Shown in pieces: positions 3,841-36,048 of a stretch of DNA of 64,000 nucleotides. The first letter of the stretch is position 1, and every line of letters begins with the position of its first letter. The notes beneath the pieces were generated by a model, which was not told the origin of the DNA, ran no database searches, and worked only from the letters and a program-made list of their open reading frames with translations. Source of the DNA: Alkalimarinus coralli (GTDB lineage Bacteria; Pseudomonadota; Gammaproteobacteria; Pseudomonadales; Oleiphilaceae); the NCBI RefSeq assembly GCF_023650515.1, contig NZ_CP096016.1:4404001-4468000 (forward strand), written 5' to 3'. The position numbers were made by a program, and so were the translations under genes.

Positions 3841-4025
3841 TTTTATCATCCTTAATTGATTTATGTACCTAACAAACGCCATCTTTGAGGCTTCCTCAGA
3901 TGGCCAAAATATCCTACAAGAAAGTTTCAAGTCTAATAACTGTCACTTCTGACAGTTACCTTCCCCTTTTCTCTCAATCATAATTGCTCCCAAAGAATGT
4001 TGTTCATAGATTTAATAGGGAAGTT
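3841..4025. promoter_or_regulatory. Divergent promoter region between the peptide gene and exporter operon
   Basis: 185 AT-rich bases separate the peptide precursor (minus strand) from the HlyD gene (plus strand). It must hold both promoters and the leader-peptide ribosome site. Near its right side is a small near-palindrome around ACTGTCACTTCTGACAGT (about 3939-3956, arms ACTGTCA/TGACAGT), a candidate operator. No recognisable Fur box or other named site was seen. Confidence 0.4.
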
Positions 4026-11692: not shown

Positions 11693-12037
11693 ATGGATAT
11701 TGCGTTTTCCAGCAAGAAGCTAAAAAAGCAGCTCAGTGAAGCGAAGGTAATGGCTAAAACCCATGGCCCCAGACGCACTGCACTCTTAAAAGTCATTATG
11801 ACCCAGTTAAGGGCTGCGCCCAATCTGGGAATTTTCGCTCCACCTTATAGTCCGCCTCGCCGCTGTCATGAACTGAAAGGTAATAAAAAGGGGCAATTAT
11901 CAGTGGATTTGGATCATCCGTATAGACTTCTATTTAAACCGATAAACGACCCCGTACCAATGAGACCAGAAGGTGGTTTGGATTGGGATCAAGTTACAGC
12001 AATAGAAATTATAGGTGTGGAGGATACCCATGGTTGA
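11693..12037 (+). CDS. RelE/HigB-superfamily toxin
   Basis: A 114-residue basic protein with a RelE-fold look. Helices dominate the first half (SKKLKKQLSEAKVMAKTHG). The conserved YRLLFKP strand and the final strand VTAIEIIGVEDTHG form the beta-sheet core. It resembles the plasmid-maintenance/HigB-like killer proteins encoded upstream of HigA-type antitoxins with an ImmA/IrrE tail. Such toxins usually cleave mRNA on the ribosome. Its stop overlaps the antitoxin start by 8 bases, a toxin-first order typical of higBA. Catalytic residues were not assigned. Confidence 0.82.
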   Translation: MDIAFSSKKLKKQLSEAKVMAKTHGPRRTALLKVIMTQLRAAPNLGIFAPPYSPPRRCHELKGNKKGQLSVDLDHPYRLLFKPINDPVPMRPEGGLDWDQVTAIEIIGVEDTHG

Positions 12038-13118
12038 TATACAGAATGAGTTTCAGCCCGATTATGCGGTCTCCCCTGGTGAAGTTCTCAGTGTTGAGTT
12101 AGAGCTAAGGGGTATGACCCAGCAGGAGTTGGCTAAACGTACAGGCATTACACCAAAACACATTATCTCAATACTAAAAGCCAAGTCAGTTATCACTCCA
12201 GAAACGGCGATTAAGTTTGAACGGGCATTAGGTATGCCAGTGGATTACTGGTTGAATCTTGAAGCTCATTATCAGGAGATACTGGCACGTCAGGCTGAGG
12301 AAGAGAGGCTTGAACGAGACTTGGATTGGCTAACTCGTATTCCGGTTAATTCGATGGCCAAAATGAACTGGATTGAGAAGGTCAAAGATAAGAAGCAGCA
12401 GCTTGTAGAAGTGCTGCGTTTTTTTGGCATAGCCAATGTTGAGCAATGGGATGATATGTGGCCTAACCTCAATGTTGCTTATCGCCAAAACCAAACACAC
12501 GAGGTATTTCCTGAAGCCGTGTCAGCTTGGTTAAGGCAGGGTGAATTGGAAGCCGCTGACATTAACTGTGCACCGTATAACAAAGCTAAGTTCAGAGAAT
12601 CACTTGATCAAATTAGAGCTTTGACAACAGAAGACCCTGCGCACTTTGTACCAGCGATGCGAGAGCATTGTGCTATGGCTGGCGTTGCGGTTGTGTTCGT
12701 ACCAGCATTACCAAAAACAGGCGTTAGTGGCGCAACACGTTGGTTAAATAAAGACAAAGCAATTATTCAGTTGAGTCTTCGTTATAAAACTGACGATCAT
12801 CTTTGGTTTACATTCTTTCATGCGGCTGGGCACATACTTCTGCATGGAAAGAAAGAGTTATTCCTAGAAGGCACGAATGGCTTAGATCAAGAAAAAGAAC
12901 ACGAGGCGAATACTTTTGCCGAGCATGAACTTATTCCGCAAAAAGTGTTTGCCAAATTTATTTCTGACAGAGACTTTAAAAAGACTTCTATATCAGCTTT
13001 TGCCAAATCAGTTGGCATCGCTCCAGGGATTGTTGTAGGGCAGCTCCAGCACAAGGGGTTACTTAACGTAAAATTCTGCAATGACTTGAAGCAGCGTTTT
13101 AAGTGGGCGCATGAGTGA
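12030..13118 (+). CDS. XRE/HigA-type antitoxin fused to a degenerate ImmA/IrrE metallopeptidase domain
   Basis: About 362 residues. The N-terminal HTH (residues about 15-70, MTQQELAKRTGITPKHIISI) is a HigA/XRE DNA-binding domain. After a helical linker, the C-terminal part (about 205-330) looks like ImmA/IrrE: FFHAAGHILLHG followed by EHEANTFAEHELIP. The usual zinc-protease motif is HExxH. Here it reads HAAGH, so the catalytic Glu is Ala and proteolysis is doubtful. The ATG at 12030 follows a GGAGG-type site inside the toxin's end. It should neutralise the toxin and repress the operon through the palindrome at 11666-11682. Confidence 0.85.
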   Translation: MVDIQNEFQPDYAVSPGEVLSVELELRGMTQQELAKRTGITPKHIISILKAKSVITPETAIKFERALGMPVDYWLNLEAHYQEILARQAEEERLERDLDWLTRIPVNSMAKMNWIEKVKDKKQQLVEVLRFFGIANVEQWDDMWPNLNVAYRQNQTHEVFPEAVSAWLRQGELEAADINCAPYNKAKFRESLDQIRALTTEDPAHFVPAMREHCAMAGVAVVFVPALPKTGVSGATRWLNKDKAIIQLSLRYKTDDHLWFTFFHAAGHILLHGKKELFLEGTNGLDQEKEHEANTFAEHELIPQKVFAKFISDRDFKKTSISAFAKSVGIAPGIVVGQLQHKGLLNVKFCNDLKQRFKWAHE

Positions 13119-15504: not shown

Positions 15505-16290
15505 CCGTTTTTTTCCCATCACATTAAGGTCTGCTCACAGTTACTTTATTGGCAACAATCTGTAGATCTGTTAAGTCAGAGGAGCCGCCGCTTATTTGTC
15601 TGGTACTCGGGCTAACTAAGAACTCCATGATGTCCATTCTGAGCCTTTTTCTATAGAATGGGATACGATGATATCCATCTCAAATGAGTGTGCCTTTCCA
15701 TTGGCTTTTAGCTACCTCAAAGCACATGCAAAAGAATGGCAAAACTCTGCTCGATAAAGCCTTTCAAAGCTGCTATTTTTCAACCCTAACAGCAGCGTAA
15801 AAGCGGCGCTGTTTCTCCATGCTTCATCGCTAAGAAGCACCACTACGACTCAGTAAAAGCCTAAGGCAAGTGGTGGGCCGCTTGGTGGGGGAGCAGGTAT
15901 TTTTGAACGGTTTCTTTTCGATAACTCGTTGAGTTTGTTAGGTTCTAGGCCGCTACTCAATGAGCAGATCCAAAACATCGAATAGCTTCCTTGGTAGAAA
16001 GTTACCCATCCAAGAATGTCTTAGAAGCTCTGTATTACCTTGTGAAGAGTATTGAAAATACAGGGCTTTTTAATTTCCCCGTCCAAATCGGTTTACAGAT
16101 GTCCGTTACCAGTTGCTGTTTAAGTGATGGGTAAAATGATGGGCAAGCCCTGTTTTTTGACTCAATAGCAAACAAAAAATACAGTGATGGTAATGACCTA
16201 TATTTTTGCGTAAGAAAATCTGGTGTACCAAAGACTTAAATCGCCAATATGACCGACGCCTCTGCATTTTTGTACGCGTCGGTTCTCGTT
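15505..16290. other. 786-base stretch without intact genes
   Basis: It contains a copy of a 21-bp dispersed repeat (TGCTCGATAAAGCCTTTCAAA, 15748-15768) and an integrase-like fragment at 16159-16239. Several short frames are all interrupted. It reads as decayed mobile DNA between the DUF4143 gene and the first HipBA pair. Confidence 0.55.
16159..16239 (+). pseudogene. Second integrase N-terminal (DUF4102-like) remnant
   Basis: The frame reads SIANKKYSDGNDLYFCVRKSG and then VPKT-stop. The KKYSDG-x-x-LYxxVxxSG pattern is the core of the DUF4102 arm-binding domain of tyrosine integrases. It shares LYFCVxKxGxP with the fragment at 13936-13995. Nothing resembling the catalytic domain follows, because the hipA gene of the next module begins on the other strand. 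Confidence 0.5.
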
Positions 16291-17520
16291 TTAGCGTAGC
16301 GGTATATTTCGTAAGTGCGTTTCAATTGCTTTAATCATCTGTTTGGTAAGCGGTAAATGCGACTTTTCTTTCGCCCATACCTCATGAAAGCCTGCTACGG
16401 TTTGCTTGGCAGTATCTAAGACCAATTTTTCTGGCAGCATGGCTTTAGCCGCTAAGTGTGATAACTCATCCAGCGTGAAATCACTGAATTTTTTGCTACG
16501 GCTAACCTTTAACGACGTACTATCATCGGGGATATAAGGGATGGTTGAGACAAAATCATAAGCGGGCGCAATGGATGCAGTGCGCTTGTCTTTGTAGATC
16601 ACAGACCAATTTTTCAAATGCATATCTGCATTGCCAATCAGGGTATTGAACACCAATCTGCGAGTAAATTCTGCGATGTCTTCTTCTTGGCCTTCGATGC
16701 CGATAACCTGAGCAATATTGCGCATACTGGCTTTTTTATACTTATCTTGAGGATAGACACCAAACACTTGCGCAAAATCTTCAATGTGTACGGCTTGATC
16801 ACCTGCACGATCAAAGCGCTTGATCACAAAGGCCTGAGCATTTTTAAAAGCATCACCAAACTGTCCAACGCCTTGTGGAACATTAGCAATCTGACTAATG
16901 GGAAGTAGCTGAGTTTCCGGCACATCCATTCCCAACATTCGAGCCAGTTCCATCATCGAATATTCATTCTCTGGCACAGCGTCAAATCGAGACGATGGCA
17001 ATTTCACAATCCAAGAGCCACCCTTACCTGTCGCTGGAATCGTCAAGCCACCGTTCGCCTGTTGTACGGCTGAAAACTTCAACTGTACACCCGCTAACGA
17101 AAACCGCATTGGGGCTTCAATTTTCGTTTCATCGTCAATGTCTTGATGCGCGTTAGGCGGCAGCGCTTCACCATCGGCTGGTTCAACCGTAATCGCGCCT
17201 GCTAAATCCTGCCCTAATACCCACAATAGAAAAAACTCCCGCGCAGGGTTCACACCGGCACGCTCTGCTAGGTAATGACGCATTGCTTCTTCTGGCAAAA
17301 GGTTGGAGAAAAACGGAGTTAACTTGGTCTGGATAGGTTTAAAGTTGGTCAGCAAACTACCTAACGAATCTTTAAAGCCAAGCCCTAAAACAGGTCGTGA
17401 TTCATCATTAATATACGAATCCATAAAGGCAAAAAGCGTTCTGTCATTGCCCACGTTAGTGATCGTTGCGATGGGTTCGCCATAGAGCAAAACGTTGAGC
17501 GTAGAGACATGATTAGTCAT
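16291..17520 (-). CDS. HipA-family serine/threonine kinase toxin (module 1)
   Basis: A 409-residue HipA-like kinase. The N-terminal Couple_hipA domain covers residues about 1-105. The kinase core follows with ATP-site loop SLAGVQLKFSA, catalytic loop NADMHLKNWS (D and N present) and metal-binding APAYDFV. E. coli HipA phosphorylates glutamyl-tRNA synthetase and drives persistence; targets of other HipA families differ. Length is close to E. coli HipA (440). The start overlaps the end of the HipB-like gene by 8 bases, so the pair is one operon. All key kinase residues seem intact, so it is probably active when released. Confidence 0.92.
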   Translation of the reverse strand: MTNHVSTLNVLLYGEPIATITNVGNDRTLFAFMDSYINDESRPVLGLGFKDSLGSLLTNFKPIQTKLTPFFSNLLPEEAMRHYLAERAGVNPAREFFLLWVLGQDLAGAITVEPADGEALPPNAHQDIDDETKIEAPMRFSLAGVQLKFSAVQQANGGLTIPATGKGGSWIVKLPSSRFDAVPENEYSMMELARMLGMDVPETQLLPISQIANVPQGVGQFGDAFKNAQAFVIKRFDRAGDQAVHIEDFAQVFGVYPQDKYKKASMRNIAQVIGIEGQEEDIAEFTRRLVFNTLIGNADMHLKNWSVIYKDKRTASIAPAYDFVSTIPYIPDDSTSLKVSRSKKFSDFTLDELSHLAAKAMLPEKLVLDTAKQTVAGFHEVWAKEKSHLPLTKQMIKAIETHLRNIPLR

Positions 17521-17854
17521 CGTCGTCTGCCTCTAACTGATATGCGGGCGACATTTGCTCAGCTTCATCGTTGATGCCGTTATTGTTTGACCCATTGTGA
17601 TAAGTACCTTGGCCACTTCGAATAATCGACTTGATAGCTGGCACAGACTTTTTAGGCGCAACAAATAGCTCTAGGTCGAGCACGCGGGCCAAAGCAATCA
17701 AACTGGACATTCTTAAATCAACGCCGCCAGACTCGATTTTCGAAATATGGCTTTGAGGCACACCCGAGCGAGCACTTAACTCTCTCTGGCTAAGCCCCTT
17801 TCGCCCCCGAGCGTCTCGAAGACTTTCTATTATCTGCTCTGTGACATAGCTCAT
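17513..17854 (-). CDS. HipB-like XRE antitoxin (module 1)
   Basis: A 113-residue protein with an XRE HTH at residues about 8-62 (RGRKGLSQRELSARSGVPQSHISKIE). The start MSYVTEQ at 17854 is chosen over the longer upstream frame because TAAGG lies 9 bases before it and the extension is unlike the family. The acidic tail (EAEQMSPAYQLEADDDD) may contact the kinase. It should repress its own operon and inhibit the HipA encoded next to it. Confidence 0.88.
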   Translation of the reverse strand: MSYVTEQIIESLRDARGRKGLSQRELSARSGVPQSHISKIESGGVDLRMSSLIALARVLDLELFVAPKKSVPAIKSIIRSGQGTYHNGSNNNGINDEAEQMSPAYQLEADDDD

Positions 17855-17908
17855 TTCGATACGCCTTAATGGATTATTTAAGAATAAATATATACAAAAA
17901 CATATCAT

Positions 17909-18180
17909 CCTAATCCCAATATCACAAGACTGATTAGTTATTGCATATCGTTGAGTTTGTATTGATATATAAATATAGATATAAAATAACGCATGCGCTC
18001 ATTTACTGTGGGGCAAATTGGACAATGGGGCAGTAATTAGAATAGCTCTCTTACAAAAAACCGTACCCAGTTTTAAGTTAAATCAACAGCCGCCACACAC
18101 TTTTCCATACCTTTACCCCCATACGCCAAACGGATAGTGGTCCATTTACTGTTTGGCGTCTCGATTTTCTGCACGGGCTA
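17909..18180. other. Intergenic region upstream of hipB module 1
   Basis: An AT-rich stretch with the hipBA promoter. It also holds a 9-bp inverted repeat, ACGCCAAAC (18123-18131) and GTTTGGCGT (18151-18159), with 19 bases between. No gene is seen. The function of the inverted repeat is unknown. Confidence 0.5.
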
Positions 18181-18237
18181 AATCCCACAAAAAAGCCCTG
18201 TCACTTGGTTGTAAGTGCAGGGCTTTTTTGTGGGATT
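18181..18237. terminator. Very long perfect hairpin terminator
   Basis: AATCCCACAAAAAAGCCCTG pairs exactly with CAGGGCTTTTTTGTGGGATT. After one bulged T the stem extends through CACTT/AAGTG to a six-base loop, giving a stem of about 25 bp. The T-run inside the stem makes it a terminator. It lies just past the isomerase gene (minus strand). The length and near-perfection are unusual for a simple terminator. Confidence 0.8.
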
Positions 18238-18276
18238 ACTTAAAAACAGCCTAGCTAGGCTAGCCTTCACCCCACA

Positions 18277-19083
18277 TCACCACCAATATTGACGCTTTAC
18301 GAAAGGTTTGTTCGGGTCTTTGCGGTTTCGAATGTCCATGATGCGCCAGTTCTTACTGATAAGCTGAGCGATTTGATAAAGGGTTTCACGCGCTAGTAAA
18401 GCCCTTGTTGATCCGTTCCAGCTTTTTTGATTGGTAAACTTAATCGCTGCGGTTGCATCGGGTGATCGTGCTTTTAGCTTTTCAGCCATCGCCAATGCTT
18501 CGGCCATGGGGTCTTCAACTACGCGAGTCACCAAGCCATACTCAAGGGCTTTATCTGCGGTAATCGGGTCACCGGTCATGATGAGTTCGTTGGCGACATC
18601 TTGCGAGATCGTGCTTCGAATGGTTTGTAGCCCCGCCATATCGGGAACCATACCCCACTTCGCTTCCATGATGGCAAGCTCCGTGTCAGGGCGTGCATAA
18701 CGCATATCGGCGCCTAGTGCTAAGGTCATCGCCATGCCGTAACTGATACCATGCATGACACAGATAACGGGTACGGGAAGGCGGTGCCAACCAATACAAA
18801 AGCGTTGCGCCATGTTGGTACCAAAAGGGTTTAACTTCCAACCAATTTTAAAAAATTGAATAGGCTGACCCATGATGCTTTTAATGTCTATACCCGAACT
18901 AAAGTGCTCACCCTTGCCTGAGATAATGACAACGCGGATATCACGGTCTTTTTTGATCACTTTTTGCACGTTGACGATGTCGCACATTAAGTCGAAATTA
19001 AACGCGTTGTACTTCTCAGGTCGGTTGAGGATAACGTGTGCGATGCCGTCTTCGACCTTGTAGATAATGTGATTAAATTTCAT
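18277..19083 (-). CDS. Crotonase-superfamily isomerase/hydratase, dienoyl-CoA isomerase-like
   Basis: A 268-residue crotonase-fold enzyme. Oxyanion-hole segments are HFSSGIDIKSI (about 60-70) and HGISYGMAM (111-119). The acidic pair E140 and D148 (IMEAKWGMVPDMAG) is spaced as in delta3,5-delta2,4-dienoyl-CoA isomerase, where the second residue is Asp rather than the Gly of simple hydratases. It follows fadH by 97 bases on the same strand. A dienoyl-CoA isomerase beside a 2,4-dienoyl-CoA reductase would complete breakdown of unsaturated fatty acids. Another isomerase subtype, such as a PaaG-like one, cannot be excluded. Confidence 0.85.
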   Translation of the reverse strand: MKFNHIIYKVEDGIAHVILNRPEKYNAFNFDLMCDIVNVQKVIKKDRDIRVVIISGKGEHFSSGIDIKSIMGQPIQFFKIGWKLNPFGTNMAQRFCIGWHRLPVPVICVMHGISYGMAMTLALGADMRYARPDTELAIMEAKWGMVPDMAGLQTIRSTISQDVANELIMTGDPITADKALEYGLVTRVVEDPMAEALAMAEKLKARSPDATAAIKFTNQKSWNGSTRALLARETLYQIAQLISKNWRIMDIRNRKDPNKPFVKRQYWW

Positions 19084-19180
19084 GACGTCCAGTTCTAGTT
19101 ATTTATTGTTTTAGAGATAGTGCGTTAAGCGTGAGAGCCGAAGCCCTCACAATTTTTTAGTGCTATGCGCTAGCTAGGTA

Positions 19181-21229
<2,049 letters not shown>

Positions 21230-21304: not shown

Positions 21305-22321
21305 ATGCAACTTTACTGCGGAATCGATCTTCATAGCAACAATAGCGTTGTATCGTTAATCAACGATAACGATACTATTGTTCAAGAAAAGCGTTTAGAT
21401 AATGATCTCAATGATATCTCTAAACTACTAGCACCCTACCAATCAGACATTTTCGGAATAGTTGTTGAATCGACATACAATTGGTATTGGCTTGTTGATG
21501 GTCTAATGGATGAAGGCTATCCAGTTCATCTAGCTAATACGCTTGCCATTCAACAATACAGCGGATTGAAATACACGAATGATTTAACGGATGCGCGTTA
21601 TTTAGCTCACCTACTAAGATTAGGCATACTTCCTACGGGATATATTTACCCTAAAGCTTTACGTGCTATTCGCGATCTACTAAGGAGAAGGCTCTTGCTG
21701 GTTAAGCAACGAACCGCTCATCACCTTAGTTTACAAAGCATGATTAACCGGCACACAGGTGAGAGGCTTAATGCGAATAAGATAAAACATCTTACAGAAG
21801 CAGAACTGAAAGCTCACTTTTCAACAAGCGCAGCGCAACTAACTGCGTTGACTGAGTGGCATATGATGAAAAAACTCTCTCAGCAAATTACTACGATAGA
21901 AAATTTTGTTCTCAGAGAATGCCAGCAAGGGGAATTGTATTCAATTCTACTTAGTATCCCTGGCGTTGGAAAAATACTGGCGATGACCATTTTGCTTGAG
22001 ACTGGACCAATTGAGCGTTTTCCTCGTGTTGGAAATTATTCATCTTATGCTCGTTGTGTGCCTTCCGATAAGGTCAGCAATGGTAAATCAAAAGGGAAAG
22101 GAAATACGAAGAACGGAAATAGATATTTAGCAATGGCTTTTGTTGAAGCAGCACATTATGCATCTATCTGGAATACTGATATAAAACGAGCCTATCAACG
22201 CAGGCTGAAGAAATCACCAACAATGGTTGCCAAGAAAGCGATAGCCAATAAATTAACGAGAGCGTGTTATCACATGCTCAAGGAGAAAACGATGTTTGAT
22301 ATTAAACTCGCATTTGGTTAA
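21305..22321 (+). CDS. IS110/IS1111-family transposase
   Basis: A 338-residue DEDD recombinase. The N-terminal RuvC-like domain has CGIDLHSNN, the acidic FGIVVESTYNWYW, and the DLTDARYLAHLL pair. The C-terminal Transposase_20 part has SIPGVGKILAMTILLETG and NYSSYARCVPSD with the family's conserved serine. IS110 transposases act with a bridge RNA that pairs donor and target DNA. AAAGGAGAC before the ATG is a strong ribosome site. The gene looks intact. Confidence 0.95.
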   Translation: MQLYCGIDLHSNNSVVSLINDNDTIVQEKRLDNDLNDISKLLAPYQSDIFGIVVESTYNWYWLVDGLMDEGYPVHLANTLAIQQYSGLKYTNDLTDARYLAHLLRLGILPTGYIYPKALRAIRDLLRRRLLLVKQRTAHHLSLQSMINRHTGERLNANKIKHLTEAELKAHFSTSAAQLTALTEWHMMKKLSQQITTIENFVLRECQQGELYSILLSIPGVGKILAMTILLETGPIERFPRVGNYSSYARCVPSDKVSNGKSKGKGNTKNGNRYLAMAFVEAAHYASIWNTDIKRAYQRRLKKSPTMVAKKAIANKLTRACYHMLKEKTMFDIKLAFG

Positions 22322-22811: not shown

Positions 22812-23426
22812 ATGAGAAAGAACATAAATAAAACCTATCACCATCAGAATTTACGTCATACCTTACTAGAAAATGCTGAAAAGCTTTTGAGTGAACGCGG
22901 TATCGACGGGCTGACATTGCGCGAACTGGCTGAGCGTTCGAATGTATCTCGGCAAGCGCCTTATCATCATTTTTCATCTAAACACGCGTTGTTGTGTGCG
23001 GTTGCTGAACGTTCTTTTGATGACTTAAATGACCTGCTTGATCAAGCGGGGATCAATGACGCGACATCCATTCAAGAGCGGCTAAAGGACTATGTCATCG
23101 CTTATGTGCGCTACGCGGCAGAAAACCCCGAGAAGTATGAACTGATGTTTGGCGCGGTCACCTGGCGCAACGAACCATCGGCCGAACTGACTGAAAAAGG
23201 GCATGCGACATTTCGCCGTTATACCCACATTATACGTCAGCTCAAAGAGCACGGTGATATGCCAGACTACTTTGACGAAATCCGCATGTCACAAATCACC
23301 TGGGCAACTCTGCATGGTTTGTGTCGCTTAAAAACAGACGGTGTCTTCGTGAGCCTTGAAGCGGTAGAAGAAATGTCACTGTATGCTGCAGAGATGATTC
23401 TTTCGGTATTGAAAGGCCAGAAATAG
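22812..23426 (+). CDS. TetR/AcrR-family transcriptional regulator
   Basis: A 204-residue TetR protein. The HTH lies at residues about 12-60 (LLENAEKLLSERGIDGLTLRELAERSNVSRQAPYHHFSSKHALLCAV). The ligand-binding half (YAAENPEKYELMFGAVTW) is like regulators with WHG-type C-terminal domains. ATG 22812 is preferred: the earlier TTG at 22776 lies inside an operator. The operators upstream suggest autorepression. It likely controlled the divergent fadH-isomerase operon, making it a fatty-acid-degradation regulator, before the IS110-type insertion. Part of its 3' end is duplicated at 24969-25080. Confidence 0.9.
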   Translation: MRKNINKTYHHQNLRHTLLENAEKLLSERGIDGLTLRELAERSNVSRQAPYHHFSSKHALLCAVAERSFDDLNDLLDQAGINDATSIQERLKDYVIAYVRYAAENPEKYELMFGAVTWRNEPSAELTEKGHATFRRYTHIIRQLKEHGDMPDYFDEIRMSQITWATLHGLCRLKTDGVFVSLEAVEEMSLYAAEMILSVLKGQK

Positions 23427-23470
23427 GGTTGGTAGACGTGGTTAAAAATAAATCGTTACGACCCCTTTAT
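23315..23470 (+). repeat. Direct repeat copy 1 (tetR 3' end and downstream)
   Basis: This 156-base stretch, the last 112 bases of tetR plus 44 beyond, recurs at 24969-25123 with only scattered changes inside the coding part. The two copies flank the Fic gene, as if its insertion duplicated or recombined at this site. Confidence 0.85.
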
Positions 23471-23512
23471 CTTCCGAAAGGTTATGACCCCGAAAAATTA
23501 TTAGAGTCTTGA

Positions 23513-23651: not shown

Positions 23652-24755
23652 ATGACCAGGCAAGCAGAGCAGCCTTACAACCAATTACCCACATTGCCAC
23701 CAAATCTAGATTTCATAGAAACTAGATCCGTACTGAAAGCCTGTATTTCTGCACGTGCCGCTGTAGCAGAGTTAAAAAAGGCTGGGGAACTCATACCTAA
23801 CCAAAGCATGCTAATTAACTTACTGCCTTTGTTAGAAGCAAAAGACAGTTCAGAAATTGAAAATATTGTTACAACTACCGATAAGCTTTTTCAGTATGCA
23901 CTAGAGGATAAAGGTGCCGATCATGCAACAAAAGAAGCTTTACGCTACAGAACAGCGTTACACCAAGGCTACATTCAGCTTGAAAGAAAACCGCTTTGCA
24001 CAGCGACTGCTATCGAAGTATGCAGCACGTTAAAGCACGCTGAAATGGAAATTCGTAAAGTGCCGGGGACTTTTATAGGTAATCAGAAGACTGGAGACAT
24101 TATCTATACACCGCCTGCTGGAGAAAACGTTATCCGCGACTTGCTAGCTAACTGGGAGCGCTTTCTTCATGATGACGATGATATAGATCCTCTGATAAAA
24201 ATGGCAGTTAGCCATTATCAATTTGAAGCCATACACCCATTTTATGACGGCAATGGCCGAACCGGTCGTATTTTAAACGTTTTGTACCTTATTGAATGTG
24301 GCCTTTTAACGCTACCTATTTTGTACTTAAGTCGTTTCATCGTTCATAACAAACAAGATTATTATCGCCTGTTGAACCAAGTAACCAACGATCAGAATTG
24401 GGAAGATTGGCTGTTATTTATGCTTAAAGGTGTTGAGCAAACGGCCATATGGACTTGCGATAAAATCACAGCGATTAGAGCTCTTATGGAAAGTACAACC
24501 GATTACATAAAAACACAGCTACCTAAAATATATAGCTACGAGCTTGTTCAGCTTATTTTTGAGCAACCCTATTGTCGTATCAGTAATCTTGTTGAACGTG
24601 ATATTGCAAAACGCCAAACGGCTTCAACGTATTTAAAGCAGTTAGCGGATATTGGTGTGCTGCAAGAACTCGATTCAGGAAAGGAAAAATTATTTGTACA
24701 CCCACGATTGATGACGTTAATGACAAAAGACAGTAATAGTATCAGCGCCTTCTGA
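23652..24755 (+). CDS. Fic-family AMPylase-like protein with C-terminal winged helix
   Basis: A 367-residue Fic protein. The Fic core motif [12 protein letters not shown] (about residues 196-207) has all catalytic and phosphate-binding residues. The N-terminal part has an inhibitory-helix motif S-xxx-E-N in DSSEIENIV (about 60-68), as in self-inhibited class II Fic proteins. The C-terminus (about 290-355, [34 protein letters not shown]) is a winged-helix DNA-binding module. The layout matches SoFic-type proteins. Fic enzymes usually transfer AMP to target hydroxyls; the target here is unknown. It is a lone gene behind an operator array, between two copies of the tetR 3' end. Confidence 0.92.
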
Positions 24756-24968: not shown

Positions 24969-25080
24969 TGGTTTGTGCCGCTTAAAAACAGACGGTGTAT
25001 TCGTGAGCCTTGAAGCAGTAGAAGAAATGTCACTTTATGCTGCAGAGATGATTCTTTCGGTGTTGAAAGGTCAGAAATAG
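24969..25080 (+). pseudogene. Duplicated 3' fragment of the TetR gene
   Basis: These bases match the last 112 bases of the intact tetR (23315-23426), including the stop, with six or so substitutions. Similarity continues about 43 bases past the stop, to 25123. There is no start or DNA-binding part. It is the second arm of a direct repeat around the Fic cassette. Confidence 0.85.
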
Positions 25081-25231
25081 AGTGGGCAGGGTTGGTTAAA
25101 AATAAATCGTTACGACCCCTTTAACTCTTCAGAAAACAGAGTCTAGTGCTCAAGACGGATTAAAATTTTGAGCTTTATCGAGTTTTTCATGGGGCTGTTC
25201 AGTAGGTGCTGCCCTCACGATAGCAAAGAAC

Positions 25232-25544
25232 CTACTCATCTAAGACAGCAACAAACTCACCAACTATACGCATGTTTTCACAATCATCTTCATGAAGAAC
25301 TATATCTTTGAAATTGGGGTCAGTAGAGTTGGGCCTTAATAAAATAACAGAATGCTCCCACTCTCCATCTTCAGTTGCTCTTTTTTCACTCGCATATGTT
25401 TTAACTGTAAATGATGAATTATATTCCTCGTCATTCTTACCATAGTTTTCAACTAGTACTATTTTACCGTTACGTGAGCCACCTAAAGATTCTCTGAATA
25501 TACAAATTGCACCATTTTTGATTCTGCGGTTCATAGACTCCCCA
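25232..25544 (-). pseudogene. Severed C-terminal LexA/S24-like domain of the PLD-helicase gene
   Basis: The frame is open from the IS66 edge. It reads LGESMNRRIKNGAICIFRE and continues for 100 residues after the Met. It contains the S24 peptidase features: serine in G-E-S-M and a lysine in SFTVKTY. Removing the IS66 element and one copy of the 8-bp repeat joins it in frame to the helicase fragment ending HFCCRVL, giving an ancestral protein of about 1135 residues. Alone it has no ribosome site of note, so it is probably not expressed as a working protein. Confidence 0.85.
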
Positions 25545-25552
25545 AGTACTCT
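25545..25552. repeat. IS66 target-site duplication, left copy
   Basis: AGTACTCT directly borders the left IS66 terminus (GTAAGCG...). The same 8 bases follow the right terminus at 28049-28056. IS66 elements make 8-bp duplications. Confidence 0.93.
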
Positions 25553-25635
25553 GTAAGCGATGTTAAATCAGCACCTTTTAATCTTCCAGCGACTACTTGA
25601 AAATTTCTCCTAACCACACACGCGGGAGAAAAGAC

Positions 25636-25965
25636 ATGGAAAACAGCCAACTTGATCAATTAAACACCTACTGGATGCAGCAGGTTACCGCCTGGAAAGC
25701 ATCCGGGCTGCCTCAAACCACATTTTGTAAAAAACATGACCTCATTTACCACCGCTTCATCTATTGGAAACTGAAGTTCGAAGGTACTTCTCAATCGTCA
25801 CCGTCAGTCACTCAAGGTAGCGAATTTGTTAAAGTACTCCCCGGAGGCTTCGGTTTTCAGCAAGCGTCAGGTCTAACAATTAATTTCCCAAATGGGATGA
25901 CTGTTGACGGCCTCTCGGACACTAACTTTGATTTGGTGTGCCAGCTCATTAAGCGTCTATCATGA
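25636..25965 (+). CDS. tnpA: IS66 accessory protein TnpA
   Basis: 109 residues from ATG 25636, which follows GGAG by 7 bases. The longer frame begins earlier without a ribosome site. It contains the IS66 orfA helix-turn-helix-like start (QLNTYWMQQVTAWKASGLPQTTFCKKHDL... YHRFIYWKLK). It is needed for transposition with TnpB and TnpC. The stop overlaps the tnpB start by 4 bases (ATGA). Confidence 0.92.
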   Translation: MENSQLDQLNTYWMQQVTAWKASGLPQTTFCKKHDLIYHRFIYWKLKFEGTSQSSPSVTQGSEFVKVLPGGFGFQQASGLTINFPNGMTVDGLSDTNFDLVCQLIKRLS

Positions 25966-26327
25966 CGCACTACTTTCGCCCCAGTTACGAGATGCCCGCC
26001 ATTTTTCTGTATCGCGATCCCGTTGATTTCCGGAAAAGCATACGAGGGCTTTCAGCACTTGTCGAACAGGAGTTGGCGCATAATCCATTTGACGGTGCGC
26101 TTTATGCGTTTACCAACCGACAGCGCAATAAAATCAAATGCCTTTTCTGGGAGAATAATGGTTTTGTGCTCTATTACAAATCCCTTGCTGAAGAAAAGTT
26201 TCGTTGGCCTCGCCATGGTGAAGACGTCATTTCTCTTTCCGGTCAACAGATTAACTGGCTGCTTGATGGTTATGACATTAGCCTGATGAAAGGGCATAAA
26301 AAACTGCATTATGAATCAGTGTTTTAG
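25962..26327 (+). CDS. tnpB: IS66 accessory protein TnpB
   Basis: A 121-residue IS66 Orf2 protein. It shows the family core IFLYRDPVDFRKSIRGLSALVEQEL, then ALYAFTNRQRNKIKCLFWENNGFVLYYKSLAEEKFRWP. This is not the RNA-guided TnpB nuclease of IS605/IS607; only the name is shared. It overlaps tnpA by 4 bases and precedes tnpC by 35. It looks intact. Confidence 0.96.
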   Translation: MTHYFRPSYEMPAIFLYRDPVDFRKSIRGLSALVEQELAHNPFDGALYAFTNRQRNKIKCLFWENNGFVLYYKSLAEEKFRWPRHGEDVISLSGQQINWLLDGYDISLMKGHKKLHYESVF

Positions 26328-26362
26328 CGTCTTTTTATCGCTCGTATGCTATAATTCGCGCT

Positions 26363-28018
26363 ATGAAAAAGGCGATAAAAACTCAGCAAAATCAACGCAA
26401 TGACGCGGCTCCAACTGTTCAGGAGCTGCTTGCGTTGTTAGCCGAAAAGAATCAAAAAATTGAGGAGCAAGATCGCCAACTCGAAGAAAAAGACACCCTC
26501 CTCAACGCCCAGCAAAAACACCTGGGCGACAAAGAAAAACTCATCAACAAGCAGCAAAAGACTATCCAGCTAATGGAAGAACAATTGCGTCTGGCCACCT
26601 TGAGAAAGTTTGCTGCCAGCAGTGAAAAGATGCCCTGGCAGGGAGACTTCTTCGATGAGGTCGAACTGGAAGAAGCGCTTGTTGAGTTGGAAGATGACGT
26701 TCCCGAAGAAGATCGGGTGATTCCACGTAAGAAAAAGCGAAACCGTGGCTTTTCCGACAAACTCCCCCGTGAGCAGATCTTTCTGCGTCTGTCCGATGAA
26801 GACAAAGCGGATGCTATCAAAACCTTCTTCACTAAAGTGAAAGAAGAGCTGGAGTTTATTCCTGCTCAGTTGAAGGTCCTCGAATTTTGGCAGGAGAAGG
26901 CCGTCTTCGAGGATGATGGCGAGGAATCCATCATCGCGGCCCAACGACCAACTCACCCATTGGGAAAGTGTTTTGCTACCCCTTCTTTACTTGCTCACAT
27001 TGTAACAGCCAAGTATGCCGATGGCTTACCACTGTATCGTACCGAAAACATCTTAAAACGGTATGGTGCCGATGTGAGTCGTACCAATATGGCTAACTGG
27101 GTAATCCGTCTGGAGAATGTATTCAAGCCGTTGATCAACCTGATGCGGGAAGTCCAACTTGAAAGCGATTACCTGCAAGCTGATGAAAGCCGAATACAAG
27201 TACTGAAAGAAAGCGGGAAACCCGCCACCTCTGATAAGTGGATGTGGGTGGTCAGAGGTGGGCCACCCGATACCCCGGTAGTGTTATTTGAATATGATAC
27301 ATCGCGTTCCGGTGACGTGCCTGTTCGACTGTTGGAAGGTTTTTGTGGTTTCCTGCAGACAGATGGTTATGCAGGCTACAACAAAGTGTGCGAAGAAAAT
27401 GACATTATCCGCATTGGTTGCTGGGACCATTGCCGGAGAAAATTTGTTGAAGCTGTTCGTGCAGCGCCCACAAAAAAGAAAGGCGCCAAACGAAGTAAGG
27501 CAGAACAAGCCGTGTTGCAAATACGAAAGCTTTATGCCGTTGAGAAGTCCATAAAAGAGTTGGATGTATCAGAGAAAAATCGTATCCGGCAGGAAAAGAG
27601 TTTACCCTTGCTTGAAGAGTTCAAGCTGTGGCTGAAGCAGAACAAAGGCAAAGTGCTAAAAGACAGCCAAACATACACCGCCATCAATTACTGCTTAAAT
27701 CAATGGGATTATCTAATCGCTTATTGTGAAGATGGTCGTCTTAATATCAGCAATGCATTGGCAGAAAATGCTATCAGACCTTTTGCCGTAGGAAGAAGAG
27801 CCTGGCTTTTTGCCGATACGCCTAAAGGTGCTTGCGCAAGTGCAGCCTGTTACAGCCTGGTAGAAACAGCAAAGGCAAACGGGCTGGAGCCATATGCCTA
27901 CATACGACACGTACTATTGAACATTGCCGATGCTGATACCGTAGAGAAATTAGAAGCACTCTTGCCTTGGAATGTTGACCAGGAGCCTTTTTCAAAAAAT
28001 GTGCCGCAGTATGGTTAG
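26363..28018 (+). CDS. tnpC: IS66 transposase TnpC
   Basis: A 551-residue DDE transposase. The N-terminal coiled coil (residues about 18-85) is rich in Q, K and E. Then comes the region before the catalytic core (FATPSLLAHIVTAKYADGLPLYR), first Asp in YLQADESRIQV, then LQTDGYAGYNKVC with CWDHCRRKF, and the final Glu region NALAENAIRPFAVGRRAWLF. Length suits the family. It probably catalysed the insertion into the helicase gene. Confidence 0.95.
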   Translation: MKKAIKTQQNQRNDAAPTVQELLALLAEKNQKIEEQDRQLEEKDTLLNAQQKHLGDKEKLINKQQKTIQLMEEQLRLATLRKFAASSEKMPWQGDFFDEVELEEALVELEDDVPEEDRVIPRKKKRNRGFSDKLPREQIFLRLSDEDKADAIKTFFTKVKEELEFIPAQLKVLEFWQEKAVFEDDGEESIIAAQRPTHPLGKCFATPSLLAHIVTAKYADGLPLYRTENILKRYGADVSRTNMANWVIRLENVFKPLINLMREVQLESDYLQADESRIQVLKESGKPATSDKWMWVVRGGPPDTPVVLFEYDTSRSGDVPVRLLEGFCGFLQTDGYAGYNKVCEENDIIRIGCWDHCRRKFVEAVRAAPTKKKGAKRSKAEQAVLQIRKLYAVEKSIKELDVSEKNRIRQEKSLPLLEEFKLWLKQNKGKVLKDSQTYTAINYCLNQWDYLIAYCEDGRLNISNALAENAIRPFAVGRRAWLFADTPKGACASAACYSLVETAKANGLEPYAYIRHVLLNIADADTVEKLEALLPWNVDQEPFSKNVPQYG

Positions 28019-28044
28019 GGGTTAGTAGGCGGATTTATTGGCGC

Positions 28045-31000
28045 TTACAGTACTCTGCAACAAAAGTGCTTTTGATCTTTGGAGTATTTTTCTGGTACTG
28101 CAATTTTGTCAAAATCTTTATTTTCCTGCATTTCACTGAATGAGCCAGCAGCGGCATAAAAATCATAAAACGGTATATAATTTTTCTCATTTGCGGCATC
28201 CTCATTTTTATTGATAAGAGGAGGCTCGGTTTCTAGTGCTTCTTTTTCTTTCAGATATTGATACATTTCGTCTGTAACAGGGGGGGACAAACTGAAAACA
28301 AAGTTAACCACTGAAACAACTTTCCCATTGTCAGTATTCATTGAGGTTTGCTTAACTTTATCTTTTTCGGGCTCAACTTCACCCATGTAGTAAAATTCAA
28401 TGCCTTCATCGTTATTTTTTTTAATAAATAAGGGCAACCTAATTCTTCCCTTATTGCCAAGTATCGATTGGACATCGTTACTTTCTAGCTTCCTGTTCGA
28501 TTTAGACATCCATGAAAACTCTTTATTATTAATAAATTCATCTTCATATTTAGTTGATTCTGAAATATCTTCGTCTTTATGATAATTTACAAAGATGGGG
28601 CAATGAGAGTTATCAGGGCTAACAAGATAGCCACCAACATTTTGTGCTACTGGGTTTGTGTCTACATTTAATATTCTAAAAACATCTTTTCTTGAATACT
28701 TCTCATACAAAACAAAACCATTATGAAAACTGTTATGTTTATTAATTTCATTAAATTTGTTGATTGAGTAATTGATAGTGTCTTGGAAATACTGCTGAAA
28801 TATATTGTTATTAAGCAATAGTTTAAACTCAGCGGTTAACTGAAAAGAGCCTTTATTAAGGTTTAATATATTGATGCCGTGAATTTCATTAAGGGTGAGT
28901 AGCTTTCCTTTACTTTTTTCACGTATGAATTTTAAGTTAATATTATTTAGGCATGACTGAATAGTTTGATCTGAAACTTCATAACCATACTTATCAGCTA
29001 CGATATTCTTTATTTCTTTAATCGTGCAAGTCTCACGCTTTAACAACGCATTTAGAATTAAACTTTCTTCAACTCGTTTGCCGTTGTTTACTTCAACAGA
29101 AAAGAACTCAAGTAATTTCAGTCCTTTATCAGATATTGAATGAGAGAAGTCATTTTCAACTTTAATTATAAAATTTAGAAATGATTTTGAGTATTCTATG
29201 TAAAGAAACGGGTCGCGCGCGCCATGCTTAACAAAATCCATCATTAGTGGCACTCGGCCAAGCTTATACTTTAAAAGAAAATAATCCTTTTTTAAGTCTG
29301 TAAGCATTTTCATATTTGCAGAGTCGATTGAAGCAAAAATTCTATTTTTTGAAATAGCATCAAAATTGATTGTGGAGCTTCCAGGTATAAGTTTGCTACC
29401 ACTTGCAATTGATCTTCGTAAAACATCTTTGTTATAAGATGTATTGCCATATAGAGCGACTGGGATAAGGTAATTATTGTTATAGTTACCAATAAAATCT
29501 ATTACTGTTAGGTATCCTTTTCCGCCACTTTTGCGCAATCCTCTTCCTAACTGCTGAACAAAAATTATTGCTGACTCAGTAGGGCGAATCATTATAATTT
29601 GATTTACTTTCGGTATATCGATCCCTTCATTAAAAATGTCGACAGTGAAAATATAATCCAGTTTTTCTGATAAATTATCGGACTCTAATAACTGAATAGC
29701 ATTAGCTCTTTCATCTTCCGAATTATCACCAGACAAAGCAATTGAGCGAAAGCCATTCTTATTAAACATCTCTGCTAAATTCTTAGATTCGTCATTACGA
29801 GAACAAAAAACGAGGCCTCTTGTTATGCCGTTATCAGTGCCATAAAACCTAGCATTATCAATAATATGATTAACTCTTTCTTCTGAGGATAAGAATGCAA
29901 AGTTTCGTTTATCTTCTAGCTCTTTTCCATCAACAAATAGGTCGGTCACACCGTAATAATGGAAGCTGCTTAGCATGTCCTCTTCCATTGCTCTATTTAA
30001 ACGAATCTCATAAGCAATATTATGATCAAATAAGCTAAATATATCCTCTCCATCAGTTCTTTCAGGTGTCGCTGTCATTCCTAATAAAAAATTTGGTGTG
30101 AAATGATTTAATAGTCGTTTATAAGAGCTAGCACCTGACCGATGAGATTCATCAATTACAATATAGTCGAAATGATCGTGCAGAAAGTTTTCTAGGTTGG
30201 TTTGTTTTGAAATAGTTTGTACAGTTGCAAATAAAAAATCACGTTCTAAATCTTTTTGGGAACCCGAATATATCCCCACTGTTTTATCAGTACCAAAAAT
30301 ATTCTTAAATGTTTCCATCGATTTTTCAGCAATAGTCCGTCGATGTACCACAAATAATAAACGCTTTGGCTTAAATGCTAATACATCAAAGGCCGATAAA
30401 TAGGTTTTACCTGTTCCTGTAGCTGAGATAAGAAGTGCTTTTGTTGCGCCATTGCGTCTTAACTGTTTAATATTTTTAAGCGCTTCTTTTTGCATGGAAT
30501 TGGGAGAAATTTCAATGCTTAATATGTGATCATCATACTTTTTTCTCAGTAGCTTTTGTTTATCATACGTACTCTGGTATTCCTCAATAAATGCGCTTGT
30601 AACAGGTGTCCCGCTTTTGAAGTCAAGGTTAAATTCATCAATAACTGTTTCAACGATTCTACTTCCATGCAGGGCAGAAACTTGAAGGTTCCACTCTTTA
30701 TTTGTCGTTAGTGCTGATGAGGTAAGATTGCTACTTCCTATGATGAGGTTGTGGTAGTCCGTTCTTTTGAACAAATAACCTTTTGAATGCGAGTTTTCTT
30801 TGGTGGCAATCCGAAGATCAATATTGGTAAATCTAAGAAGCTTTCTAAGTGCTTCAGGATCCGTAAAGTTTAAATATTGAGAAACAACTATTTTTCCTTG
30901 AATACCTCGACTTTCAAGCTCTTTCAATGTATTCATTAAAACTGCAACACCACTAGTTGTAACAAATGCAACTGAGATAAAAAATTCATCGCAAGACAAC

Positions 31001-31143
31001 AACTCACTTAAAATGGATGGTAGAATTTTTTGTGGTGGGTTCTTTTTATTAACCAATAGCGTTGGTTGATATAGTTCTTCCGAATTTATTTCTTTATCTA
31101 TAAATCCGGTTTGTAAACTTTGATGCAGTTTATCTAATATCAT
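28045..31143 (-). pseudogene. PLD nuclease-SF2 helicase-DUF3427 protein, C-terminal LexA-like domain cut off by IS66
   Basis: 1032 residues remain. Order: a PLD-like nuclease domain (H119-x-K121 and IIGSSNLT at 134-141), the SF2 helicase with ATGTGKT (241-247), DESH (331-334), TATPERTDG and the arginine-finger region VQQLGRGLRK, then DUF3427 (FRILNVDTNP... PIFVNYHKDEDISESTKYEDEF). Near the end is FYDFYAAAGSFSEM, a LexA/UmuD-like Ala-Gly cleavage site (A999-G1000). The last codons and stop come from the IS66 end. The serine/lysine half of the LexA-like domain lies beyond the element at 25232-25544. It is coupled to a Nudix gene 13 bases upstream. Codon use is strikingly AT-rich. Such genes sit in defence islands, but the role is inferred. 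Confidence 0.88.
28049..28056. repeat. IS66 target-site duplication, right copy
   Basis: AGTACTCT follows the right IS66 terminus (...GCGCTTAC), identical to the left copy at 25545-25552. Confidence 0.93.
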
Positions 31144-31156
31144 TTAGATTAGACTC

Positions 31157-31555
31157 TTATATGGTATGTTTTTGCAGTTGTTTAACTATTGGAATATCAG
31201 CTGCAGCCCAATCAAGCTTCCCTAATTCTTCTACCTTAAGCCACTTATGATCAATATGTTCCGTTAGGACTACCTCTTTACTGTCAACTAAACAGATATA
31301 GGAGTGCATCGTTATGAAAAAATCAGGGTATTGGTAATTAACTGTATGGAAAAATTTTGGTTCAACAATATTGAGTTTTAATTCTTCTTTAATCTCTCTG
31401 ATTATTGCATCTTCTTTAGTTTCTTTAATTTCAATCTTTCCGCCAGGAAATTCATATTTATCTGAAATGTATTCAAACTTTGCTGCCCCTCGCTGTACGC
31501 ACAGTATTTCATCACCGCACTTTATAATTGCGGCAACCACATCAATTTCTTTCAA
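31157..31555 (-). CDS. Nudix (MutT-like) hydrolase upstream of the helicase
   Basis: A 132-residue Nudix protein with the full box G-x5-E-x7-R-E-I-x-E-E-L (GGKIEIKETKEDAIIREIKEEL, residues about 40-61 in three runs). It resembles 8-oxo-dGTP-type pyrophosphohydrolases, which cleave nucleoside diphosphates linked to X. The start is TTG at 31555, supported by AGGTGA 4 bases upstream. It is the first gene of a two-gene operon with the PLD-helicase, 13 bases apart. The pairing suggests it supplies or removes a nucleotide for the same system; this is inference. Confidence 0.9.
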   Translation of the reverse strand: MKEIDVVAAIIKCGDEILCVQRGAAKFEYISDKYEFPGGKIEIKETKEDAIIREIKEELKLNIVEPKFFHTVNYQYPDFFITMHSYICLVDSKEVVLTEHIDHKWLKVEELGKLDWAAADIPIVKQLQKHTI

Positions 31556-32244: not shown

Positions 32245-33495
32245 TTAAACATTAAACGCTGATTGTTTCATGGCTTGCTCGGCTCGGCTGATCCCGAGGC
32301 GCTTAGCAACGGCTTGCCATTGTTTAACCGCCATTAATACTTCATCGTAAATTTGCGTGGCTTGGGGTTGAGAAAGTCGGAAGAAGTCTTTTACGTCAAA
32401 GGCTAATGGGTAGTCTAGAGCGTTGTCTGTATCGGTAATATTTAGATGCAGGCCGTGTTTACCCACTATCGGGTTTAAATCATAAGCGGGTGATAACTTC
32501 CAACCATTCTTTGTTAATAAAAAACCATGATTACGCAGGTGGTCATCCGTATTGGACACCGCAATATTAAACACGATGCGACGCCATAACTGTGCTAAAT
32601 CTGCTTCTGTTTGTGCACCTTGAGTAGAAAGGAATTCAGCAATCTCTAAGTAGCTGGCACCTTGAGATTGTTCACCATCATAGTATTGAAGCTGTGTCAT
32701 GGCCGATGAGAAATGCAGTCGTTGATCACCGTCGCGGTCAAAGCGTTTTGTTAAAAAGGTATGATGCCGAGAGGAAAACTGCCTAATCTCACTTGGAAAC
32801 ATGTCAACACCTGCCGCCAAAGCCAATTCATAACAGACCATCTCCCACGCCCCTACATCATGGGTATCATTTAGATTGGGAAACTTAGCAATCCACAATT
32901 GGCCTTGTTCATCTGTCACACAAGCCTTGGGCCTTGCACCACCTAATGATGAGCCTGGAGAAATCAGCATCTTCAACCAGTGATAATACTCGTCACTGTC
33001 GATGTTATCATCTTTTTCAATCTGCATTGCAGCGTGCTCCAACTCTCGCAGAGAAGCCATTGGCGGCGCAGCAAATTCGGCATTATTGTCTAAAAAAGCA
33101 TCCGACCCTACTCGCTTAAATCGAATACCACCCATCCGGTAAGAGTCATGTACGCCTAGCAGGTAATCTAGCTCGTTTAATCGACTTGTTGCTCGAATGC
33201 CTTTGCGCGCTTCAACGGCCGCACGCCGCTGCATTAGAATACGTCCCCATCTATCAGGCGATGAATCAAGAAATGCACGGAAGTTTTTATCGGCTTCGTC
33301 ATTGTAGAGGTCACCGGAGTGAAGCGTCAGGATTGGGTCAATTTGCAAGCGATAGGCTGAGGTTAAAAACGCTTTATCGTAGGCAAAGCTAAACACGCCA
33401 CCTCGGCTTGAATCGCTGTAAGAAAGCTGCCCTATTAGCAAAGGCACTTCAATTGGCTGCCAGTCGGCATAGACTTCGACAATTTCACGGCTCAT
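32245..33495 (-). CDS. HipA-family kinase toxin (module 2)
   Basis: 416 residues. The kinase shows the phosphate-binding stretch PGSSLGGARPKACV, catalytic loop NTDDHLRNHGFLL and metal-binding SPAYDLNP. The N-terminal part is the HipA coupling domain. It is only distantly like module 1 at 16291-17520; this version has the SLGGARPK motif typical of the second large HipA branch. All catalytic residues are present. The start overlaps the HTH gene by 4 bases, making one operon. Confidence 0.92.
   Translation of the reverse strand: MSREIVEVYADWQPIEVPLLIGQLSYSDSSRGGVFSFAYDKAFLTSAYRLQIDPILTLHSGDLYNDEADKNFRAFLDSSPDRWGRILMQRRAAVEARKGIRATSRLNELDYLLGVHDSYRMGGIRFKRVGSDAFLDNNAEFAAPPMASLRELEHAAMQIEKDDNIDSDEYYHWLKMLISPGSSLGGARPKACVTDEQGQLWIAKFPNLNDTHDVGAWEMVCYELALAAGVDMFPSEIRQFSSRHHTFLTKRFDRDGDQRLHFSSAMTQLQYYDGEQSQGASYLEIAEFLSTQGAQTEADLAQLWRRIVFNIAVSNTDDHLRNHGFLLTKNGWKLSPAYDLNPIVGKHGLHLNITDTDNALDYPLAFDVKDFFRLSQPQATQIYDEVLMAVKQWQAVAKRLGISRAEQAMKQSAFNV

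Positions 33496-35101: not shown

Positions 35102-36048
<947 letters not shown>

Follow-up and report, generated by a model that had tools for sequence, protein, structure and literature searches.

An IS66 insertion in the LexA-like tail of a SauUSI-like type IV restriction gene of Alkalimarinus coralli

The interrupted gene and its IS66 element

Within a 64,000-nucleotide stretch of the Alkalimarinus coralli genome (contig NZ_CP096016.1, positions 4,404,001 to 4,468,000; hereafter the window), a minus-strand gene at 25232..31143, which encodes, with its flanks joined, a SauUSI-like type IV restriction enzyme of 1135 aa with a C-terminal LexA-like S24 domain, is interrupted by an IS66-family insertion sequence of 2496 bp on the plus strand (25553..28048). 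The insertion divides the gene into a large minus-strand fragment of 1032 aa (28045..31143; calculated mass ~118 kDa), which contains a PLD nuclease, an SF2 helicase, DUF3427, a linker and the first part of the S24 domain, and a small remnant open reading frame (ORF) of 100 aa on the same strand (25232..25534), which contains the rest of the S24 domain with its Lys.

The element displays the known features of its family, namely the tnpA/tnpB/tnpC gene set, ends that start with GTAAGCG and an 8-bp target-site duplication, with no unusual difference. TnpA (25597..25965; NF047593), TnpB (25962..26327; PF05717) and the DDE transposase TnpC (26363..28018; PF03050) occur together on the plus strand and score above the respective cut-offs (NF047593, 73.8 bits against 28; NF033819, 115.9 against 50; NF033517, 383 against 180). 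The termini form inverted arms of 22 nt (25551-25572 and 28029-28050) with 77% complementarity, a span that includes two duplication bases on each side. As claimed in the original prediction, a perfect duplication, AGTACTCT, borders the element at both ends (left copy, 25545..25552; right copy, 28049..28056; neither assigned to a strand). This 8-mer occurs four times in the window against 1.17 expected, and perfect copies touching both IS66 ends by chance is a coincidence of about 4^-8. A second copy of the element (G000:C1:2031011-2033506), the sole other match at E <= 0.001 in the genome (one contig, 4.83 Mb), is 100% identical across 2496 bp and is enclosed by a perfect 8-bp duplication of its own, GGATCATA, which argues that the ends of IS66 have been placed correctly. 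By itself, such an insertion is ordinary.

When the element and one copy of AGTACTCT are removed, the flanks form a single open frame of 1135 aa, in agreement with the in-frame rejoining to about 1135 residues that had been proposed. A scan of genome contigs recovered nine loci, among which those from Neptunomonas (L003), Psychromonas (L004), a Sphingobacteriia metagenome-assembled genome (MAG; L005) and Psychrosphaera (L007) are full length and unbroken across the insertion site, as is a Colwellia MAG locus (L011) over the C-terminal third that is covered. L006, L008 and L010 (L006 and L010 being contigs of one assembly) lack the tail and end shortly after DUF3427, as does L009, the start of which is cut off; such S24-less homologues stop soon after the point equivalent to residue 964 of the 1032-aa fragment, where DUF3427 ends. 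The head-to-tail alignment with the unbroken homologues (1127-1154 aa) therefore points to a single original gene, and tail-less relatives also exist. This, taken together with the perfect duplication and the rejoined frame, upholds the claim of one continuous gene before the arrival of IS66; the contrary arrangement, in which homologues end at CCRVL and a small S24 gene lies elsewhere, was not found in the loci compared.

Compared with L003, L004 and L007, identity is 82-84% for the small piece and 65-78% for the large one, and in both most differences fall at third codon positions. Both pieces remain open, and the large fragment has no further frameshift or stop relative to the homologues. 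The intact frames, the absence of visible decay and the identical second copy suggest that the insertion was a recent event, the identity of the two copies pointing in particular to recent movement of IS66. Four same-genus genomes searched for an empty site gave weak helicase-type matches only (best E 6.4e-21), and a search of plasmids with the 45 residues around the site gave no match. Because the same-genus genomes supplied no counterpart, the form of the empty site is deduced only from the homologues and the joined flanks.

By its domain content, the large fragment is a complete SauUSI equivalent with 68 extra residues. The PLD nuclease (~aa 68-172), SF2 helicase (~212-538) and DUF3427 (680-964) follow one another in this order and are recovered by Pfam as PLDc_2, ResIII/Helicase_C and DUF3427, the last of which corresponds to the coupler plus the target-recognition domain. 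PADLOC mREase_IV matches the fragment with E 2.4e-232, and residues 2-964 align with residues 4-951 of the 953 in SauUSI (PDB: 7clg; E 1.3e-222). The excerpts of the SauUSI paper (PMC7913695) describe a nuclease, an SF2 ATPase, a helical coupler (618-805) and an SRA-fold target-recognition domain (806-953), an order shared with the window enzyme. These excerpts mention neither LexA/S24 nor NUDIX/MutT, whereas the window enzyme adds the C-terminal LexA-like domain and is preceded by a NUDIX gene; its dependence on 5-methylcytosine is putative. The earlier statement that IS66 split a helicase gene stands as regards the gene, but the helicase itself was spared, all restriction-enzyme domains lying upstream of the new stop.

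Two versions of the target-recognition region are seen among these enzymes, one reading NPVAQNVGGY... in the window, L003, L007 and the tail-less L006, and the other reading STVYGY... in L004, L005, L011 and the tail-less L008 and L009. The mixing of both DUF3427 C-terminal versions over tailed and tail-less enzymes suggests swapping of specificity domains.

The LexA-like tail and its distribution

IS66 sits after the residues ...CCRVL, so that the Ser-Lys dyad is parted from the Ala-Gly site motif, which the enzyme keeps. The large fragment retains the AAAG/S site motif, with its Gly at residue 1000, followed by 32 residues and a TAA stop formed by bases 2-4 of the IS66 end. The Ser codon (25535-25537) lies directly upstream of the ATG of the remnant (25534), which starts one codon past Ser, and the interval between this ATG and the in-frame stop that IS66 contributes at 25570 lacks any ATG, GTG or TTG. 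The dyad and the Ala-Gly site are present in the window but divided between two pieces: both Ser and Lys are missing from the large ORF, Lys alone is found in the small ORF as called, and, as read from the sequence, neither product carries the whole dyad, barring an unusual start codon. The remnant had been expected to pass as a separate hypothetical gene, and ORF 25232-25534 has no match at E 0.01 in Pfam, PADLOC or NCBIfam; scans with the same three libraries made no S24 call in either of the fragments split by IS66, which serves as a warning for annotation pipelines. What goes beyond the original prediction is the identity of the gene, which is a SauUSI-like type IV restriction gene, and of the broken part, namely the catalytic half of its LexA-like tail.

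The relationship of the tail to LexA is seen in its intact homologues. Peptidase_S24 (PF00717) exceeds the Pfam cut-off in all four full-length homologue tails (26.1-36.3 bits against 23.3), and the host LexA is the sole other PF00717 match in the genome. A PDB sequence search with the S24 profile had no match at E 0.01, and at E 10 gave only three chance matches, small and of defensin type; the identity of the tail was settled by a fold search instead. An AlphaFold2 model of the L007 module (eight sequences; predicted local distance difference test score, pLDDT, 78.9) has LexA (PDB: 3k2z) as its top Foldseek match, with E 8.7e-6, and is aligned by VIA-align with the LexA C-domain (PDB: 1jhe) over 120 residues with Z 13.9 and a root-mean-square deviation of 2.4 A. 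The RecA-bound structures of LexA, UmuD and CI are all among the fold matches of this model, with Z 13.3-13.5 for RecA-bound LexA, 12.9 for the RecA-bound lambda repressor and 9.7 for UmuD, and the first matches outside LexA, UmuD and the phage repressors, namely signal peptidase and Raf1, have Z 6.5. The LexA C-domain fold is hence predicted for the module of this intact homologue and not for the window's own pieces.

In an alignment with the host LexA, G-E-S-M of the tail falls on G-M-S-M, and F-T-I/V-K on V-T-V-K. The Gly-to-Ser spacing is 35-39 residues in the tails against 34 in the host LexA, the Ser-to-Lys spacing is 45 in 14 of 14 tail modules against 37, and a profile comparison between the two aligned only the part from residue 32 onward (probability 93). 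Alignment A6 comprises 14 modules, all of which have Ala-Ala-Gly, Ser and Lys unchanged at a mean column identity of 55%; the exceptions elsewhere are L053, with A-T at the site, and internal domains in which Lys is replaced by Arg (8 of 8). The tails share with the C-terminal autoprotease domain of LexA, UmuD and lambda CI (PF00717; MEROPS S24) the predicted fold, the Ser-Lys dyad and the Ala-Gly ahead of Ser, and differ in being borne on the C-terminus of restriction enzymes and not on a DNA-binding or polymerase-accessory protein.

At E <= 1e-10, the tail profile matched nine of the 369 genomes of the window's class, its own genome counted, and a wider tail profile matched five of the 398 genomes of the phylum, counting its own genome and two seen already. 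The carriers discussed here comprise these class and phylum matches, the loci of the scan that included the four same-genus genomes and three viral-contig loci; two further matches of that scan (G023, G034) and Halomonas L092 stand outside the list. The C-terminal tail is found on SauUSI-like enzymes (L003, L004, L005, L007, L011), Schlafen-group-3 helicases (L020, L035, L037, L039, L048 and L050 by Pfam; L021 by similarity), HsdR-like proteins (L040, L041, L054), the type III-like L053 (PADLOC REase_III, E 2.2e-143) and the HNH protein L038, of which L011 and L021 were assigned without a Pfam scan. Further matches are L043, a copy that has decayed, and L055, which is a repressor of phage type; L042 was considered as a stand-alone module and rejected, being cut by the end of its contig. 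Among the modules added later, L048, L050 and L054 have A-A-G, L053 has A-T and L055 has S-A-G, and the three viral-contig modules also keep Ser and Lys. A plasmid search with the module returned two records, a LexA-family regulator and Halomonas L092, the latter without annotation; a phage search returned 26, of which 25 are named repressor, regulator, S24-like peptidase or UmuD-like and one hypothetical, with no fusion among the names listed.

An S24-like domain also occurs internally, between the coupler and the target-recognition domain, in L013-L017 (Pfam run on L013 and L014), where all five have Cys-Gly at the site and Arg for Lys; the same replacement was read by eye in L076, L081 and L082. 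Methyltransferases are also seen at such loci, as an N-terminal domain of L013 by Pfam and, in L095, as a separate gene directly upstream. DUF3427 is present in 15 of the 369 genomes of the class, and a pattern search of the 14 loci from other genomes located an internal S24 in three and none in eleven.

In a tree of the cores of 15 SauUSI-like enzymes, the five enzymes with a tail fall together in one group (94/96; 90% of 200 bootstrap trees), which is consistent with a single gain of the tail on these cores; the remaining 10 rows are S24-less enzymes (914-981 aa), with a long branch for L072. In a tree of 20 modules with few strong branches, the SauUSI modules (93/99) and the HsdR modules (98/96) each form one group, and the Schlafen modules do not. 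Less ordinary than the insertion is that related tails, mostly with a conserved site and dyad, recur on several kinds of restriction-like protein. Among the matches listed from the open-licence literature, no report was found of a LexA-like domain on a restriction enzyme or of a NUDIX-SauUSI pairing, which is weak evidence of absence; neither appears in the excerpts of PMC7913695, PMC3874153, PMC7159879 and PMC5389931.

The NUDIX partner and the genomic setting

Directly upstream of the restriction gene, on the same strand and separated by a 13-nt gap, lies a gene for a MutT/NudG-like NUDIX hydrolase (31157..31555, minus strand; PADLOC candidate PDC-S07). The same arrangement is present in 11 of 16 SauUSI-like loci checked (the window, L003, L004, L005, L006, L007, L008, L089, L090, L091 and L093) and was not found in the other five (L072-L075, L094), a count that omits L009 and L011 (short upstream sequence), L056 (a partial gene with no NUDIX match), L010 (the second contig of the L006 assembly), a S. 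aureus plasmid match and distant, partly aligned enzymes. The restriction gene of L093 was matched in three pieces without a listed coding sequence and may be broken. The pairing extends over named records in Pseudomonadota, Bacteroidota and Bacillota, with or without the tail, and the restriction gene is the probable second gene of a NUDIX-restriction operon. A role of NUDIX as the partner of all DUF3427 proteins was rejected, the strict NUDIX motif being absent in 17 of 17 loci of another set, four of which (L072-L075) are among the 16 above; L077 has a weak partial NUDIX match upstream (E 8e-5). In L090 and L093, which are lactobacillus plasmids, a second gene annotated as a nucleotide pyrophosphohydrolase follows the SauUSI-like gene, which thus lies between two nucleotide pyrophosphatase genes.

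The best solved relative of the NUDIX protein is a putative CTP pyrophosphohydrolase (PDB: 3gwy; E 5.4e-36), and the E. coli CTP pyrophosphohydrolase (PDB: 2rrk) matches with E 2.8e-10. It shares the NUDIX domain with NudG (Orf135) and MutT, but falls under the NCBIfam equivalog cut-offs for both MutT (TIGR00586, 79.3 against 97.9 bits) and the pyrimidine-nucleotide model (NF007834, 75.8 against 156). Our guess is that a sanitiser which bars methylated cytosine from host DNA would suit a nuclease that depends on 5-methylcytosine.

The operon is part of a 24-kb block (11404-35404) between the core genes yicC (10538-11404) and gmk (35404-36048). As measured by match ends, the distance from yicC to gmk varies among four same-genus genomes (16.5 kb, 1.6 kb, 10.5 kb and ~10 bp), which makes this a variable insertion hotspot that can carry defence genes. 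In one of these genomes (G001) the block contains an AbiEii homologue and shares the stretch 15962-21226 with the window at 98%. Several other features of the block may be recorded. A 158-nt direct repeat (92%; 23315-23472 and 24969-25126), which corresponds to the 3' end of a TetR gene, lies on either side of a Fic gene (23652-24755), and G001 has an extra partial copy of the TetR region, as if cassettes had been added there with the gene end regenerated. An IS110-type transposase gene (21305-22321) lies between the FMN-oxidoreductase and TetR genes, which adjoin directly in G001. A plus-strand gene at 12015-13118 encodes a protein with helix-turn-helix and M78-peptidase regions that resembles PADLOC PD-Lambda-2_B (E 4e-34), and the block also holds HipA-like genes (16291-17520 and 32245-33495), a DUF4143 ATPase (PDC-S01) and a SoFic-like gene.

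A proposed switch and its alternatives

We consider the best explanation to be a recent IS66 insertion into the LexA-like tail of a SauUSI-like gene, which left a long piece that is probably active and tail-less, the tail itself being proposed as a RecA-triggered switch; we would put this at roughly 80%. The long piece can be expected to be still made, since the insertion near the 3' end leaves the promoter side untouched and IS66 supplies a stop, and by analogy with the natural S24-less relatives it is probably an active enzyme; we infer that the small ORF is dead.

LexA, UmuD and CI cut themselves on binding RecA filaments. The likeness of the tail to these self-cleaving proteins, together with the resemblance of the predicted cut product to the tail-less enzymes, leads us to propose a damage-responsive gate. 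In the intact enzyme the tail would act as an autoprotease, set off by RecA filaments, whose own cut at Ala-Gly would release it; this cut would remove ~136 of the 1135 residues and yield an enzyme like the natural tail-less ones. Restriction might in this way be gated in response to DNA damage: as an off-switch, the tail would provide a form of restriction alleviation, and as an on-switch it would arm the enzyme when phage replication exposes single-stranded DNA. The IS66 insertion would have frozen this copy near the cleaved form, within ~33 residues.

Several observations weigh against this interpretation. The presence of Arg for Lys in eight internal S24-like domains (five aligned, three by eye), together with A-T in L053, raises the possibility that some such domains may work without cleavage. 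MAFFT places the Gly of the tail A-A-G one column off the Gly of LexA, and the invariance of A-A-G in the 14 modules is partly circular, module starts having been located by a pattern requiring A-A/C-G and the decayed L043 having been dropped. The full-length L007 model is poor (pLDDT 57.7) and does not give the placement of the tail on the enzyme. Loss of the tail could also destabilise the enzyme, on which 32 residues of a half domain are left. No LexA-box of the form CTGT-N8-ACAG lies near the operon, the only one in the window being at 3940, against 0.80 expected. As regards the insertion, no IS-free sister strain was seen, and nothing else found speaks against it.

A simple knock-out, in which the truncated enzyme with its half tail misfolds or is degraded and type IV restriction is lost, seems to us somewhat unlikely. 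The product does extend 68 residues past the SauUSI-equivalent end and includes an incomplete S24 domain, but every domain for catalysis and DNA recognition is present in full and in frame, natural tail-less enzymes make up 10 of the 15 core-tree rows, and comparison with the homologues reveals no additional frameshift or stop in the fragment. It is unlikely, too, that the tail has no working protease and serves, in LexA-like form, for docking or dimerisation, its dyad being inherited baggage. Such a role would fit the Arg for Lys in all eight internal domains examined and the lack of the site Gly in L053; the invariance of Ser and Lys in 14 of 14 C-terminal-tail modules despite the 55% mean column identity, and their retention in the three viral-contig modules too, argue against it. 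Finally, each ORF has its own start and stop codon, as would two naturally separate genes with IS66 merely between them, but IS66 itself supplies both the stop codon that ends the large ORF and the in-frame stop upstream of the small one, five homologous loci are continuous, and the loci examined have no stand-alone gene starting at the Met of the remnant, which makes separate genes exceedingly improbable.

The proposed switch can be extended, tentatively, to the whole set of tailed proteins. One S24 subfamily might be a portable RecA-sensing, self-cleaving tail, borne on SauUSI type IV, HsdR-like type I and type III enzymes, Schlafen-group helicases and an HNH protein, that switches restriction after synthesis, with NUDIX, in the SauUSI-like operons, barring 5-methyl-dCTP from host DNA and the IS66 mutant being uncoupled from the switch. 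If true, the placement of LexA's self-cleaving domain on restriction enzymes would couple restriction, at the level of the protein itself, to SOS signalling, with a bearing on restriction alleviation, by which cells spare their own damaged DNA, and on the timing of defence. The IS66 insertion would then be a natural mutant that uncouples one enzyme from a switch through which DNA damage or phage replication may turn restriction on or off.

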